The translations under genes and the position numbers were made by a program. From the NCBI RefSeq assembly GCF_041355105.1, contig NZ_JBFUPK010000002.1, positions 434,001 to 498,000 on the forward strand: DNA of 64,000 bases. The letters run 5' to 3'. Under the pieces are notes generated by a model that saw only the letters and a program-made list of their open reading frames with translations, did not search any database and was not told the DNA's origin. Positions 30,884-42,538 of the stretch are shown here, one piece after another; position 1 is the stretch's first letter; each line of letters opens with the position of its first letter. The DNA comes from Terriglobus sp. RCC_193. GTDB lineage: Bacteria; Acidobacteriota; Terriglobia; Terriglobales; Acidobacteriaceae.

Positions 30884-30900
30884 GGTTTTGTTGCTGTTGC

Positions 30901-30926
30901 AGGGCCCGGTTAATCCGGGCCCTTTT
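30901..30926 (+). terminator. Terminator after uxaC
   Basis: A perfect 9-bp stem AGGGCCCGG/CCGGGCCCT with a 5-base loop, then TTTT. Confidence 0.85.
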
Positions 30927-30935
30927 ATCTGCTTT

Positions 30936-31346
30936 CTATCTATCGTCATCCTGAGCGTAGCGCAGCGAAGTCGAAGGACCTGCATTCTGTTGTGCCCTCT
31001 GCAATGCCTCATGGAGTGCAATCAACTCTTCACGCTTCCATTTATAAGGCTGCACCGGTTTTCCCAGGTTTTCCGCGAGATCGAGCCACGTTGGATTCAA
31101 CGATTCAATAAGAGCGAGTTTCTTCTCGCGCCGCCATCCCTTGAGTTGTTTTTCCCGCGTAATGGCAGCCATCGGACCATCGTAGATTTCGTAATACACC
31201 AAGCGGGTGCAACGATAGTCCCTGCTGAAGCCTGCAAATAAACCCAGCTTATGTTCAGAGATGCGGCCATCCAGTTCTGTGGTCATGCCGATGTACAAAG
31301 TGCGACTTCGGCTGGCCATGATGTATATGTAGGCTTTTTTGGACAT
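30936..31346 (-). CDS. Small GIY-YIG domain protein flanked by inverted repeats
   Basis: The 136-residue protein has a UvrC/YhbQ-type GIY-YIG fold at the N-terminus: AYIYIMASRSRTLYIGMT (the GIY..YIG pair in divergent form), then the Arg helix (RISEHKLGLFAGFSRDYRCTRLVYYEIYD) and the Glu-containing REKQLKGWRREKKLALIESLNP. These are the expected catalytic positions. The last ~16 residues (NAGPSTSLRYAQDDDR) are simply the translation of repeat element B at 30942-30988. An inverted copy of that repeat lies 31 bases upstream of the start. Function is unknown; a nuclease acting on repeat hairpins is a speculation. The start is the ATG before KKAYIYIM. Confidence 0.82.
   Translation of the reverse strand: MSKKAYIYIMASRSRTLYIGMTTELDGRISEHKLGLFAGFSRDYRCTRLVYYEIYDGPMAAITREKQLKGWRREKKLALIESLNPTWLDLAENLGKPVQPYKWKREELIALHEALQRAQQNAGPSTSLRYAQDDDR
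30942..30988 (-). repeat. Dispersed repeat B, copy 1 (inverted)
   Basis: 47 bases, reverse complement of copies 2 and 3 with a single mismatch each, lying inside the 3' end of the GIY-YIG gene and providing its final codons and stop. Confidence 0.85.
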
Positions 31347-31376
31347 GGCTTCCCGAAACATTGTAGAGCGGCGAGA

Positions 31377-31423
31377 AGAATGCAGGTCCTTCGACTTCGC
31401 TGCGCTTCGCTCAGGATGACGAT
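31377..31423 (+). repeat. Dispersed repeat B, copy 2
   Basis: The element begins AGAATGCAGGTCCTTCGACT and ends CGCTCAGGATGACGAT. Together with copy 1 it brackets the GIY-YIG gene as near-perfect inverted repeats. Confidence 0.88.
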
Positions 31424-31493
31424 CTTTAGGGGTTTACAGTAAGGAGCTGGATTCGGAAGCGGTGCTCTCCGTCAGAAGCGTAGCGGCGTGGGA

Positions 31494-31540
31494 AGAATGC
31501 AGGTCCTTCGACTTCGCTGCGCTCCGCTCAGGATGACGAT
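31494..31540 (+). repeat. Dispersed repeat B, copy 3
   Basis: This direct copy of 31377-31423 has one mismatch in 47 bases, and the identity continues for 8 more bases (CTTTAGGG). Confidence 0.88.
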
Positions 31541-31564
31541 CTTTAGGGGAGGAGCTTCGCTGGG

Positions 31565-31630
31565 ACGATCTTTGATCGTAGGATCGCGTGTTGCGCGATG
31601 CGCAGGTTAGCTGCGTGAAGCTGCGGTGCC
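31565..31630. repeat. Triple-hairpin repeat, diverged copy, overlapping the gntR 3' end
   Basis: Three consecutive stems: ACGATC/GATCGT (31565-31579), ATCGCG/CGCGAT (31583-31599) and CGCAG/CTGCG (31601-31625). Order and spacing match 39496-39557 and 41236-41297, but the stem bases differ in paired fashion. It supplies the last seven codons and the stop (31607-31609) of the GntR gene. Confidence 0.6.
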
Positions 31631-39460: not shown

Positions 39461-39820
39461 GCATGCTTCGACTTCACTTCGTTTCGCTCAGGATGACGAC
39501 CTTACGGTCGTATGAGCGTGCTTTGCACGCTGCCCAGGTTAGCTTCGCGAACCTGGGGCACCCGGTTCTTGGCTGCAGGTCGTTTTTGCTTTCCTGACAC
39601 GTTGTAGAGGGTGTGGAGGAATGCAGGTCCTTCAGCTACGCTTCGCTTCGTTCAGGATGACGGTCTTCGACCGTACGAGCTTCGCTGGGGATGGTCTTTG
39701 ACCGCAGGAGCTTTGTAGCGCTCACAGGGAAGGTCTGCGACCATACGAGCTTTGCTGGGGACGGTCTTTGACCGTAGGAGCTTCGCTGGAATACAAGGTT
39801 TCGTTGGAATACAAGGTATT
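39461..39820. repeat. Repeat cluster 1: element B copies, triple hairpin and a four-unit tandem array
   Basis: The 574-base gap 39317-39890 has no gene. It holds B-type elements (39461-39503, 39618-39667), an 87-base block 39486-39572 repeated exactly at 41226-41312 with stems ACGACC/GGTCGT, AGCGTGC/GCACGCT and CCCAGGTT/AACCTGGG, and a tandem array with units starting at 39660, 39691, 39730 and 39771. Each unit carries a GGTCTTTGACC-like mini-hairpin plus GAGCTTCGCTGG. Two TGGAATACAAGG copies end it. Confidence 0.8.
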
Positions 39821-39890
39821 GATGGCCTTTCCTATGTCAGAAGAATTGCTCTAAAGTGGATTTATTCCAACGGCATACGAGGCTGATGTT

Positions 39891-41138
39891 TTGAACTCAG
39901 GAAAACAGGAACGCAGCCTGCGTGCCCACCAGGGCATCACGCTTGTCCTGCTGTTCGCGGCAGGCATTGTGAACTTCTTTGATCGTTCGTCTTTGTCCGT
40001 TGCAAATACTGTCGTACGCGGTGAGCTGCATCTGAACAACGCGCAGATGGGCTGGCTGCTCTCCTCTTTCTCGTTGTCTTATGGCTTTGCGCAGCTTGGG
40101 TTGGTCGCGTGGCTGGATCGATTAGGCACGCGAGTAATGCTGGGCATTGGGCTGGCGGTGTGGAGCCTGGCGCAACTGCTCACTGGATTCGTTACGTCGT
40201 TCCCCGTGTTCATCATTCTGCGCATTTTGTTGGGAGCGGGTGAAGCGCCGTTTTATCCCAGCGGCATTCGAAGCGTTCGCGAATGGTTCAGCCGTGGCAC
40301 ACGCGGACGCGCCACGGCGCTGATGAGTTCGTCGCAGACGTTTGGGCTTGCTGCTGCGCCGCCGTTGCTCACACTGTTAATGCTGCGCATTGGTTGGCGC
40401 GGCATGTTTGAGGTTTTGGGTGCCGCAGGACTTGTCGTTGCGTTGTTGTGGCTTGTGCTGCATCGCCCACGTTCGGCGACGATGCATAGTGATGAGACAC
40501 TCACGGTTATCCCAACAGGCAGCGTCTATCGTGAATTGCTGACGCAGCGCACGGTGTGGGGCATGATGCTGGGCTTTGGTGGCGTGAATTACACGGCGTG
40601 GTTATACATCGCGTGGTTGCCGGGATATCTGCAAACGGAACGTCATCTCTCGCTGTCGCAGAGTGGATGGCTTGCGGCGATTCCGTTTCTGGCGGGTGCG
40701 TTCGGCATGTTGGCCAGCGGTTTTCTTGCAGATGCGTTTGCTGCACGTGGGTATAAGCTGACTTCGATTCATCGCACGCAGATCATCCTGGGTATGGTGA
40801 TGAGTGCGGCTGCGTCGTTCTTTGCGTCGCATGCGTATTCGTTGCCTGCCGCGGTCATCAGCATCAGCGTTGCGTTTGGGTTTATCCAGTTTGGCGGCAC
40901 CAGCGGATGGGGTTATGTGCAGGCGGTCAGTCCGCCACATCTGGTTTCTGCGTTGGGTGCGTTGCAGAATTTTGCAAGCTTCCTGATCGCGTCGGTTGCA
41001 CCGGTGGTCACGGGTATGATCGTGGATCGCACACATAGTTTTACGCTGGCGTTTGCGGTATGTTCTGCGGTTACGCTGCTGGGTGCGTTGAGTTATGCCA
41101 CGCTGGCTGCTCCGGGTGGTATGAAGATCGACGATTAG
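39891..41138 (+). CDS. MFS transporter of the sugar-acid/anion symporter type
   Basis: The 415-residue protein has twelve predicted helices. It opens with AGIVNFFDRSSLSVANTVV, the helix-1 motif of the ACS family, and has LGAGEAPFYPSGIRSVREWFSRGTRGRATALMSSSQTFG around helix 4, GGVNYTAWLYIAWLPGYL in the second half and GYVQAVSPPHLVSALGALQNF late. The family includes glucarate, galactonate and hexuronate carriers, so a sugar-acid substrate is likely. The start is a TTG with GAGG 8 bases upstream. The gene stands alone between two clusters of nearly identical repeats. Confidence 0.85.
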   Translation: MNSGKQERSLRAHQGITLVLLFAAGIVNFFDRSSLSVANTVVRGELHLNNAQMGWLLSSFSLSYGFAQLGLVAWLDRLGTRVMLGIGLAVWSLAQLLTGFVTSFPVFIILRILLGAGEAPFYPSGIRSVREWFSRGTRGRATALMSSSQTFGLAAAPPLLTLLMLRIGWRGMFEVLGAAGLVVALLWLVLHRPRSATMHSDETLTVIPTGSVYRELLTQRTVWGMMLGFGGVNYTAWLYIAWLPGYLQTERHLSLSQSGWLAAIPFLAGAFGMLASGFLADAFAARGYKLTSIHRTQIILGMVMSAAASFFASHAYSLPAAVISISVAFGFIQFGGTSGWGYVQAVSPPHLVSALGALQNFASFLIASVAPVVTGMIVDRTHSFTLAFAVCSAVTLLGALSYATLAAPGGMKIDD

Positions 41139-41204
41139 GGTTTCATCGAAAACATGTACTACGGAGTCGTACGGCTTTCCAGAAACATTGCAGGGAGTGG
41201 AGAG

Positions 41205-41540
41205 GAATGCAGGTCCTTCGACTCTGCTCAGGATGACGACCTTACGGTCGTATGAGCGTGCTTTGCACGCTGCCCAGGTTAGCTTCGCGAACCTGGGGCA
41301 CCCGGTTCTTGGGTTATGGATGCTTTTTTAGCTTTTCCTGAAGCGTTGTAGAGGGTTGAGAAACAAAGCAGGTCCTTCGACTCCGCTCAGGATGACGGCT
41401 TTGGCCGTTTGAGCTTCGCTTTCGCGAAGCTGGTTTGGGTTGGTGGCTGAAAGCTTCCTGTGACCTTGGCAGGATGTGAGTTCGTCGGGATTCTTCGCTT
41501 CGCTCAGAATGACGTTTTTGGCCGCATGAGCTTCGCTGGG
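41205..41540. repeat. Repeat cluster 2 downstream of the MFS gene
   Basis: The 476-base gap 41139-41614 has no gene. It holds B-type elements (41205-41243, 41368-41397), the exact 87-base duplicate of 39486-39572 at 41226-41312, a further hairpin pair ACGGC/GCCGT and AGCTTCGC/GCGAAGCT (41395-41431), and an A-type element (41487-41514) followed by the same GAGCTTCGCTGGG tail. Confidence 0.82.
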
Positions 41541-41614
41541 TGAGGGGCTTTATTTGTATGAGCAGTGCTGGATGACGGACTTTGTTTGTATCGCTGGATG
41601 CACGGACTATGGGC

Positions 41615-42538
41615 TTACGAGTTGCTCTGTGATTTCAACAGCGCGTCCACGTCTGCTCGATAGGGCATGCCTGTCTGCGCGCCGGAACGTGTGATGGAAA
41701 GTGCGGCGGCGGCGCATGCGAAACGTGCTGCTTCGACGGGAGTGCGGCCTTCTGTGAGCGCAACGGCGAATGCTCCGTTAAAGCAGTCGCCGGCGGCGGT
41801 GGTATCTACGGGGCGGAGGTCGGGTGTGGGGACCAGCACAGGCGTTGGCACGTCCGCACCGGCCAGGTAAGCGCCGCGCGGCCCCAGCTTCAGGATGACG
41901 TTGCGTGTGCCCAAAGCCAGCAGGCGTTCTGCCGCTTTGGCTTCTGTCATGGCAGTGGTGCGGCCCAGCAGTGTGCGTGTTTCCGATTCGTTTGGCGTGA
42001 GCCAGGTAACGCAGCGCAGCAGGTCCAGCGGCAATGGCTGTGCCGGAGCAGGGTCGAGGATGAATGGGATTTTGGCGTCGCCGCATTCCTTTGCCAGCGC
42101 TGCAACGGTTTCCAGCGGCGTCTCCAACTGCGCCAGGACGATTGAGGCTTTGCGAATCTCCGCGCGTGCGGCGACGATATCCGCGGGTTGCAGGGTGGCG
42201 TTGGCTGCGGGTGTGACGACGATGCTGTTGTTGCCATCTGCGGCTACCGTGATGGCGGCTACGCCGCTTGGGCCTTCCACAGTGACCACCGTGGAGGTGT
42301 CAATTTTCTCCACAATCAGCGCATTGCGCAGAAGTTCACCAAAGCTGTCTGCGCCGACGCGTCCGATCATGTGGACGGCGGCTCCCAGGCGCGCGGCCGC
42401 GACGGCCTGATTGGCGCCCTTGCCGCCGGGGATGGTAGCAAAACTGCTCCCCAGCAGCGTTTCACCAGGCGTGGGGATGCGGTCCACGGTGCTGACCAGG
42501 TCCAGATTGATGCTTCCAACGACAAGGATCACGCTCAT
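41615..42538 (-). CDS. rbsK: Ribokinase (PfkB family)
   Basis: The 307-residue PfkB kinase has the ribokinase N-terminal signature VVGSINLDLVSTVDRIPTPGETL followed by the glycine-rich PGGKGANQAVAAARLGA (~residues 38-54). It also has QLETPLE, the LTPNESE segment and the C-terminal DTTAAGDCFNGAFAVALTEG loop with the catalytic Asp. It phosphorylates D-ribose at O5. The ATG at 42538 was chosen because AGAGG lies just upstream; an ATG five codons earlier is possible. No ribose transporter is nearby. It is divergent from yidC. Confidence 0.9.
   Translation of the reverse strand: MSVILVVGSINLDLVSTVDRIPTPGETLLGSSFATIPGGKGANQAVAAARLGAAVHMIGRVGADSFGELLRNALIVEKIDTSTVVTVEGPSGVAAITVAADGNNSIVVTPAANATLQPADIVAARAEIRKASIVLAQLETPLETVAALAKECGDAKIPFILDPAPAQPLPLDLLRCVTWLTPNESETRTLLGRTTAMTEAKAAERLLALGTRNVILKLGPRGAYLAGADVPTPVLVPTPDLRPVDTTAAGDCFNGAFAVALTEGRTPVEAARFACAAAALSITRSGAQTGMPYRADVDALLKSQSNS

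Follow-up and report, generated by a model that had tools for sequence, protein, structure and literature searches.

REPs that carry a GTAG tag are moved by RAYTs, as set out in two papers (PMC2817692, PMC6006769). A different group of REPs, tagged with CGTC, apparently lacks a dedicated transposase according to the paper that describes it (Di Nocera 2013, PMC3733652). The locus described here, from Terriglobus sp. RCC_193, has features in common with both groups. As in the RAYT/TnpA-REP systems (REPtron, REPIN), a small nuclease gene lies between inverted, tagged and structured repeats, and there are many gene-less copies, tag-outward dimers and several kinds per genome. It differs from these systems in that the enzyme is a GIY-YIG protein (PF01541) rather than an HUH/Y1 protein (PF01797) and the tag is CGTC or TGTC rather than GTAG. 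The locus is thus REP/RAYT-like in its working, yet it is not a RAYT, since the HUH enzyme and the GTAG tag are both absent. With the CGTC-tagged REPs characterized in PMC3733652 it shares the CGTC/TGTC tag, AT at the first stem positions and the formation of dimers, and the arms found in relatives match the descriptions given there, for instance those for Novosphingobium, S. meliloti, Azospirillum lipoferum and Neisseria (dRS3). Unlike the REPs of that account, the repeats here flank GIY-YIG genes, and those of the Terriglobus locus have longer arms with an interrupted stem.

The proteins nearest to the Terriglobus enzyme by sequence and fold are those of the UPF0213/YhbQ type and Slx1. The solved proteins among these are not known to be mobile, and Slx1 works with Slx4 on branched DNA. 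GIY-YIG nucleases also occur in mobile contexts, including homing endonucleases such as I-TevI and Penelope-like elements. The Terriglobus unit is unlike these in that no intron, reverse transcriptase or separate DNA-binding domain was seen and a core of about 95 residues lies between inverted repeats. None of the titles listed in a search of the open-access literature links GIY-YIG genes with REPs, and a search of the same literature for TCATCCTGAGC returned titles that, among the matches listed, look unrelated.

The Terriglobus unit, its repeat family and its protein

The window, which is the whole stretch of DNA that was analysed, comprises 64,000 nucleotides. The features of the unit and its surroundings, in window coordinates, are:

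30936..31361, minus strand: GIY-YIG nuclease gene, 141 aa, recognized as an open reading frame with a PF01541 match
30942..30988, plus strand: left REP-like arm, the outer end of which bears the CGTC tag (30944-30947)
31377..31423, minus strand: right REP-like arm, with its outer-end CGTC tag appearing as GACG at 31418-31421 on the plus strand
31494..31540, minus strand: third repeat copy, in the same direction as the right arm and within a 70-nt duplication
30884..31606, no strand assigned: interval between a uxaC-like gene and a GntR-type regulator, about 720 bp in the window and about 65 bp, with neither gene nor repeat, in the genus genomes G003 and G013

The first-pass annotation of this DNA had described 47-base inverted repeats with a single mismatch that enclose the GIY-YIG gene, and sequence comparison confirms that the arm at 30942-30988 is the reverse complement of the one at 31377-31423 except at 1 of 47 positions. 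The third, direct copy that it placed at 31494-31540 is likewise present, with one mismatch against the left arm and one against the right, and belongs to a direct duplication of 70 nt (31363-31432 and 31480-31549, 91% identity). The left repeat had also been said to supply both the final residues and the stop codon of the protein. The last ~15 residues are indeed encoded by the left arm, although the final amino-acid codon, AGA, falls just beyond it, as does the TAG stop codon (30936-30938). The unit is placed just behind a terminator. A 35-nt core pattern, allowing up to three mismatches, is matched 3 times in the window, where 100 shuffles give an expectation of 0.00, and only one other inverted pair of exact 20-mers was found within the 64 kb, its members being 37 kb apart. 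Looser copies of the motif occur singly at 1084, 4748 and 16471, and six further copies lie on the minus strand within 39488-41890 (at 39488, 39652, 41228, 41387, 41504 and 41890). At loci L001, L016, L038 and L040 the nuclease reading frame enters the repeat and the protein ends in, for example, QDDN or RDDNH; at L003 the frame ends before the repeat.

The repeat forms a CGTC-tagged REP-like family whose members are scattered over the genome. Exact copies of the 13-mer GTCATCCTGAGCG number 144 in the genome to which the window belongs (4.2 Mb in 9 contigs), 79 forward and 65 reverse, with 0 copies of the reversed control, and the looser pattern GTCATYCYGAGCG has 234 copies (control 1). The designation REP-like is used because the arms in the window lack a perfect stem of 8-9 bp with a loop of 4-5, a structure that many arms of relatives do have; the window arms end in AGGAC and contain one stem mismatch. 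As single-stranded DNA the window arms fold no better than shuffles (z about +0.5), whereas arms from Neisseria and Novosphingobium fold better than shuffles (z about -4.1). The genome has four PF01541 genes, namely uvrC and three small genes, and all three of the small genes are bracketed by inverted repeats. Two of the units, the one in the window and L003, have repeats of type A, and the third (L002) has the distinct type B, TGTCATTCTGAGCRAAGCGAAGAATCCCGACGA. Among the 100 listed of the 144 type-A copies, neighbours no more than 1.5 kb apart make up 10 pairs with the tags outward, 7 in direct orientation and none with the tags inward; eight of the outward pairs are spaced 139-174 bp, and the other two are the GIY-YIG units, at 460 and 463 bp.

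In the gene-bearing units the 48 nt that follow the repeat on its inner side are not alike at the upstream (U) and downstream (D) ends, which allows the arms of gene-less dimers to be scored for either end. All 7 outward dimers that have scores for both arms combine an arm favouring U with an arm favouring D, and in 5 of 8 dimers both arms score at least 24, the 99% shuffle level, one of the five (L063) being nearly tied on one arm (28 versus 30). Random re-pairing of the same 14 arms gives a perfect U/D split with a probability of ~0.04, so the split is suggestive support for an autonomous form accompanied by a MITE-like form. From their subterminal sequences, the gene-less dimers look like MITE-like deletion derivatives that retain both ends of the unit.

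PF01541 was the only domain found in the window protein (E 3.7e-14; 53.2 bits against a cut-off of 22.6), and the Y1 (PF01797) HUH transposase domain is absent. NCBIfam contained no family for this protein or for five others, PHROGs gave no family, and PADLOC assigned 0 anti-phage defence families to four proteins. Across an alignment of 26 proteins there is no variation at the positions of Y13, Y23, G25, R33, H37, E70 and N89 of the window protein, and the Y, YxG, R, E and N, which we take to be the active-site type residues of GIY-YIG enzymes, are also invariant in an alignment of 20 (20/20). A regular expression for the active site matched 56 of 80 loci; its spacing was too strict, and inspection by eye indicates that the loci it missed keep the residues, except L171, where H is changed to R. 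Based on the invariance of the catalytic-type residues in the 26 aligned sequences, the protein is expected to be an active nuclease. Its AlphaFold2 model has a mean pLDDT of 81.6. The closest solved relatives by sequence are the UPF0213 proteins 1zg2 (E 8.3e-11, profile A4) and 1ywl, and the closest fold matches of the predicted model are 1zg2 and Slx1 (Z 7.3, rmsd 3.0, 97 aligned), with I-TevI also among them (Z 5.2). All of the fold Z values are modest, being below 8, a range in which matches can be common according to the tool, and the assignment is carried by the sequence matches to 1zg2 and 1ywl. The likeness of the predicted fold to that of Slx1 would suit recognition of hairpins or junctions.

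Recurrence of repeat-bracketed GIY-YIG genes

A PF01541 search was carried out in 41 genomes and 38 small loci were read, with three long or partial non-UvrC matches and many UvrC ones left unread. Inverted arms, defined by a score of at least 28, are present at 31 of the 38 small loci versus 0 of 14 UvrC loci; a further UvrC locus at a contig end (L028) was left out of the 14 and belongs to a set of 15, none of which scores above 24. The motif faces head-outward on both sides at 20 of 38 small loci versus 0 of 14 UvrC loci. A null distribution of 1040 cross-locus arm pairs has a median of 20, a 95% level of 26 and a 99% level of 41, and is partly spoilt by a few pairs that score 259-435 and are probably orthologous genes in opposite orientation. 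The arms differ strongly between elements and match within one element (e.g., L040, L045 and L052), and their outer stems are paired and covary. The outer 5-nt stem has its own exact complement in 29 of 52 arms, compared with 9.2 (sd 2.35, maximum 18) when stems were dealt among arms, and in L006 and in L052 the two arms differ from each other by compensatory changes. The strict hairpin rule applied to more distant loci (see below) is passed by 0 of 36 loci of the Acidobacterial type, which is why the inverted-arm and stem-complement tests were used for them. Copies of the pattern number 2 to 234 in 25 genomes of the window's own family and 0 to 2 in 14 genomes of a second family of the same order. 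Within the own family, genomes with and without a small GIY-YIG gene do not differ significantly in repeat number (p 0.069, 18 versus 7 genomes), with G010 entered as lacking the gene since its sole non-UvrC match (L047) is weak and repeat-less.

For more distant bacteria, strict bracketing required a CGTC or TGTC tag and a hairpin on both sides of the gene with the tags outward. A tblastn search of a plasmid collection gave 35 matching records, 17 of which, chosen against near-duplicates, were read. Inverted arms scoring at least 33 occur in 14 of these 17 and strict bracketing in 9, while L081, L086 and L089 have no arms; the loci include species of the 2013 CGTC paper, namely S. meliloti, Novosphingobium aromaticivorans, Azospirillum lipoferum and Neisseria (dRS3). 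Genome contigs were scanned with a 20-sequence alignment, taking the protein alone as the criterion, and the best 80 of at least 574 confirmed relatives, a non-random sample, were read. Strict bracketing was found at 44 of the 80 loci, and 75 have an outward hairpin on one side or both. Hairpins number 3.96 per kb close to the gene and 0.37 per kb at distances above 700 bp, with 0.21 per kb in shuffles, and near the gene tag-inward hairpins are also common (73 inward versus 136 outward). According to record titles, bracketed loci outside the Pseudomonadota include a Planctomycetes genome (L108) and Arenibacter (L149), as well as metagenome bins labelled Bacteroidetes (L114, L142), Ignavibacteria (L109), Calditrichaeota (L158) and Uhrbacteria (L156), although bin labels can err. 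In a third set, from the Rhodanobacter family, 15 of 27 loci with full flanks are bracketed and 24 of 27 have a hairpin on one side, three truncated loci (L234, L235 and L238) having been excluded from the original 30.

Arm scores of at least 35 were obtained at 40 of 79 loci (L154 was left out), a count that has no cross-species control, as 218 of 934 cross-species pairs also score at least 35, the repeats being common to different species. Since shared repeats spoil that null, it was replaced by the near/far density given above and by arms dealt within sets. When the 12 nt that follow the tag were compared between the two arms of each of the 68 elements with strict bracketing, agreement was 0.901, versus 0.699 when right arms were dealt within each set (sd 0.017, maximum 0.765, 0 of 5000 deals reaching the observed value). 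The gene and its two arms are one unit and not a coincidence. Protein and repeat covary in the best 80 loci (r 0.53, 0/5000), whereas in the Rhodanobacter-family set r is 0.15 (958/5000) and in the pooled loci 0.07 (1077/5000); because the sets are mixed in this respect, cognate specificity is not established as general. Among 97 Rhodanobacter-family genomes, 53 have the gene at an E value of 1e-20 or better. The CGTC-1 pattern is found in 32 of these 53 genomes and in 12 of the 44 without the gene (Fisher p 0.002), with 523 copies in the gene-positive genomes versus 68 in the gene-negative ones and 0 copies of the reversed control throughout; the 12 gene-negative genomes that keep the repeats have up to 30 copies.

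The initial suggestion of a gene-plus-ends unit with a layout like that of RAYTs and REPs, built on a nuclease fold, is supported by its recurrence, both at the small loci of related genomes (31/38) and in the wider set (44/80). Orthologues that lack the repeats, which the first-pass annotation had named as contrary evidence, do exist, but as a minority: 7 of the 38 related loci have no inverted arms, and 5 of the 80 wider loci have no tagged hairpin on either side.

The genome of Sphingobium terrigena (G047, L222-L229) contains several GIY-YIG copies whose repeat stems differ from copy to copy, one of which (L228) has a compensatory stem change between its arms. On plasmid p1 of Planktothrix agardhii (L075), a GIY-YIG unit lies between an MmeI-type restriction gene and drmA (DISARM).

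Empty and filled sites

The uxaC-like gene to the left of the window unit is present in 19 of 19 genus genomes. G003 and G013 (97% protein identity) can be aligned with the window to the left and right of the unit, and the interval of ~720 bp in the window corresponds to ~65 bp that include the terminator and neither the gene nor a repeat. Conserved synteny without movement, which the first-pass annotation had named as contrary evidence, was not seen. Among more distant genomes, G005 also has neither gene nor repeat at this site, and G011 has one repeat and no gene. The site of the second type-A unit (L003) measures 39 to 214 bp in G003, G013, G011 and G005 versus ~620 bp in the window's genome (G000); all four lack a GIY-YIG match there, and G005 has a repeat. 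A HIT-family gene beside this site is inverted in G003 and G013 relative to G000, G011 and G005. The L002 site is not a clean empty site, as G003 and G013 have ~1.1 kb of other DNA there.

Similar differences are found in other groups. In Azospirillum lipoferum 4B a unit lies between sufB and sufC, and in A. oryzae, A. ramasamyi and strain B510 the same interval is 87-129 bp with no gene or repeat and flanks that are ~95% identical. Shinella sp. PSBB067 (L083) and A. lipoferum (L087) have GIY-YIG units with different CGTC repeats, both in the sufB-sufC interval, apparently as parallel insertions. Among Sphingobium plasmids, TomMM7A (L085) is filled, and TYG72 and TYG65 are without the unit. 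Where TomMM7A has the unit, TYG64 and TYG74 (among L094-L097) have a symmetric CGTC palindrome standing alone, which could be a scar or a pre-insertion target. The flanks have drifted in sister species and are too diverged to place exact junctions or a target-site duplication. From these alignments the unit looks mobile, having been gained or lost between sister genomes, with the direction of the change a matter of interpretation.

Candidate mechanism and alternative explanations

The unit is probably a REP/RAYT-like mobile element in which the GIY-YIG enzyme would nick its own tagged repeats and host repair would copy the interval between them. The enzyme most likely recognizes and nicks its repeats at or near the tag, the substrate perhaps being a hairpin, a cruciform or single-stranded DNA. 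Host repair would then assist in copying the interval between two outward repeats into another intergenic site, or in relocating it there. GIY-YIG enzymes hydrolyse DNA without a covalent intermediate, so the joining must come from elsewhere, and strand transfer by host enzymes would supply it. The nuclease, rather than another enzyme, would be the driver of this process, and it probably acts in trans on gene-less repeat dimers.

Alternatively, the repeats could spread by other means and a GIY-YIG homing endonuclease could cut a repeat dimer and insert its gene there as a parasite. This would account for a gene that lies between two halves which elsewhere make gene-less dimers, GIY-YIG domains are known from homing enzymes (I-TevI being among the fold matches), and two Sphingobium plasmids have a solo palindrome where TomMM7A is filled. 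Homing is nevertheless unlikely, as there is no repeat at the window site in G003 or G013, nor between sufB and sufC in the three Azospirillum sisters, and the dimers bear the upstream and downstream subterminal sequences of the unit, as deletion derivatives would. It is less probable still that the protein is a domesticated nuclease with which the host resolves or trims repeat hairpins, the flanking repeats serving as regulatory or hitch-hiking sites. The predicted fold near the UPF0213 proteins and Slx1 and the persistence of repeats in some gene-negative genomes would fit such a role, but the presence of the gene in 53 of 97 Rhodanobacter-family genomes is patchy, unlike that of a house-keeping gene, and there are several copies with different repeats per genome as well as empty sites. 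Of the two possibilities raised at first pass, self-spreading or domesticated, the former is thus the better fit and the latter the poorer one.

If intergenic gaps simply gather both repeats and small mobile genes, the association could be one of chance or of insertion hotspots, and both the repeats and the gene are indeed intergenic, with the window unit just behind a terminator. This explanation is very improbable given that arms match within an element far beyond those of other elements, that the tags face outward, that the spacing is ~460 bp in both type-A units, and that the motif is absent at the UvrC and Y1 controls. The least probable explanation is that Y1/RAYT transposases of the same genome mobilize the repeats, with the GIY-YIG genes as passengers. 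Y1_Tnp matches are found in 17 of 19 genus genomes, and RAYTs are the established movers of GTAG REPs, but a GTCATYC-type motif is present within 450 bp at 0 of 30 Y1 loci read, a control smaller than the number of Y1 matches listed. Inverted repeats of other sequence, belonging to several unrelated families, occur at 14 of these 30 loci (L259-L288), which serves as a positive control for the method and indicates that the two nucleases keep different repeats. Moreover, G001 and G017 have no Y1 match, yet they have 28 and 15 pattern copies, respectively, together with GIY-YIG units.

Under the preferred reading of a mobile element driven by its own nuclease, the distribution and arrangement of the units suggest that the GIY-YIG enzyme may be the missing mover of the CGTC-tagged REPs. 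The chances appear about even for the broader proposal that a stand-alone GIY-YIG protein of ~95 residues, which brings along neither a recombinase nor a reverse transcriptase, mobilizes both itself and the CGTC-tagged REPs in several phyla, nicking repeat structures by hydrolysis and relying on host repair, in parallel to and independently of RAYT/HUH systems. CGTC-tagged REPs are widespread in bacteria and had no known mover (PMC3733652), and a dedicated enzyme family makes the question of their movement testable with a single small protein and a single oligonucleotide. If the proposal is true, two unrelated nuclease folds would have reached the same life style of repeat plus nuclease, and a DNA element would be spreading by means of a nuclease without covalent strand transfer. 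It would also provide a function for many proteins that are annotated as 'GIY-YIG nuclease family protein' or 'excinuclease ABC subunit C'.
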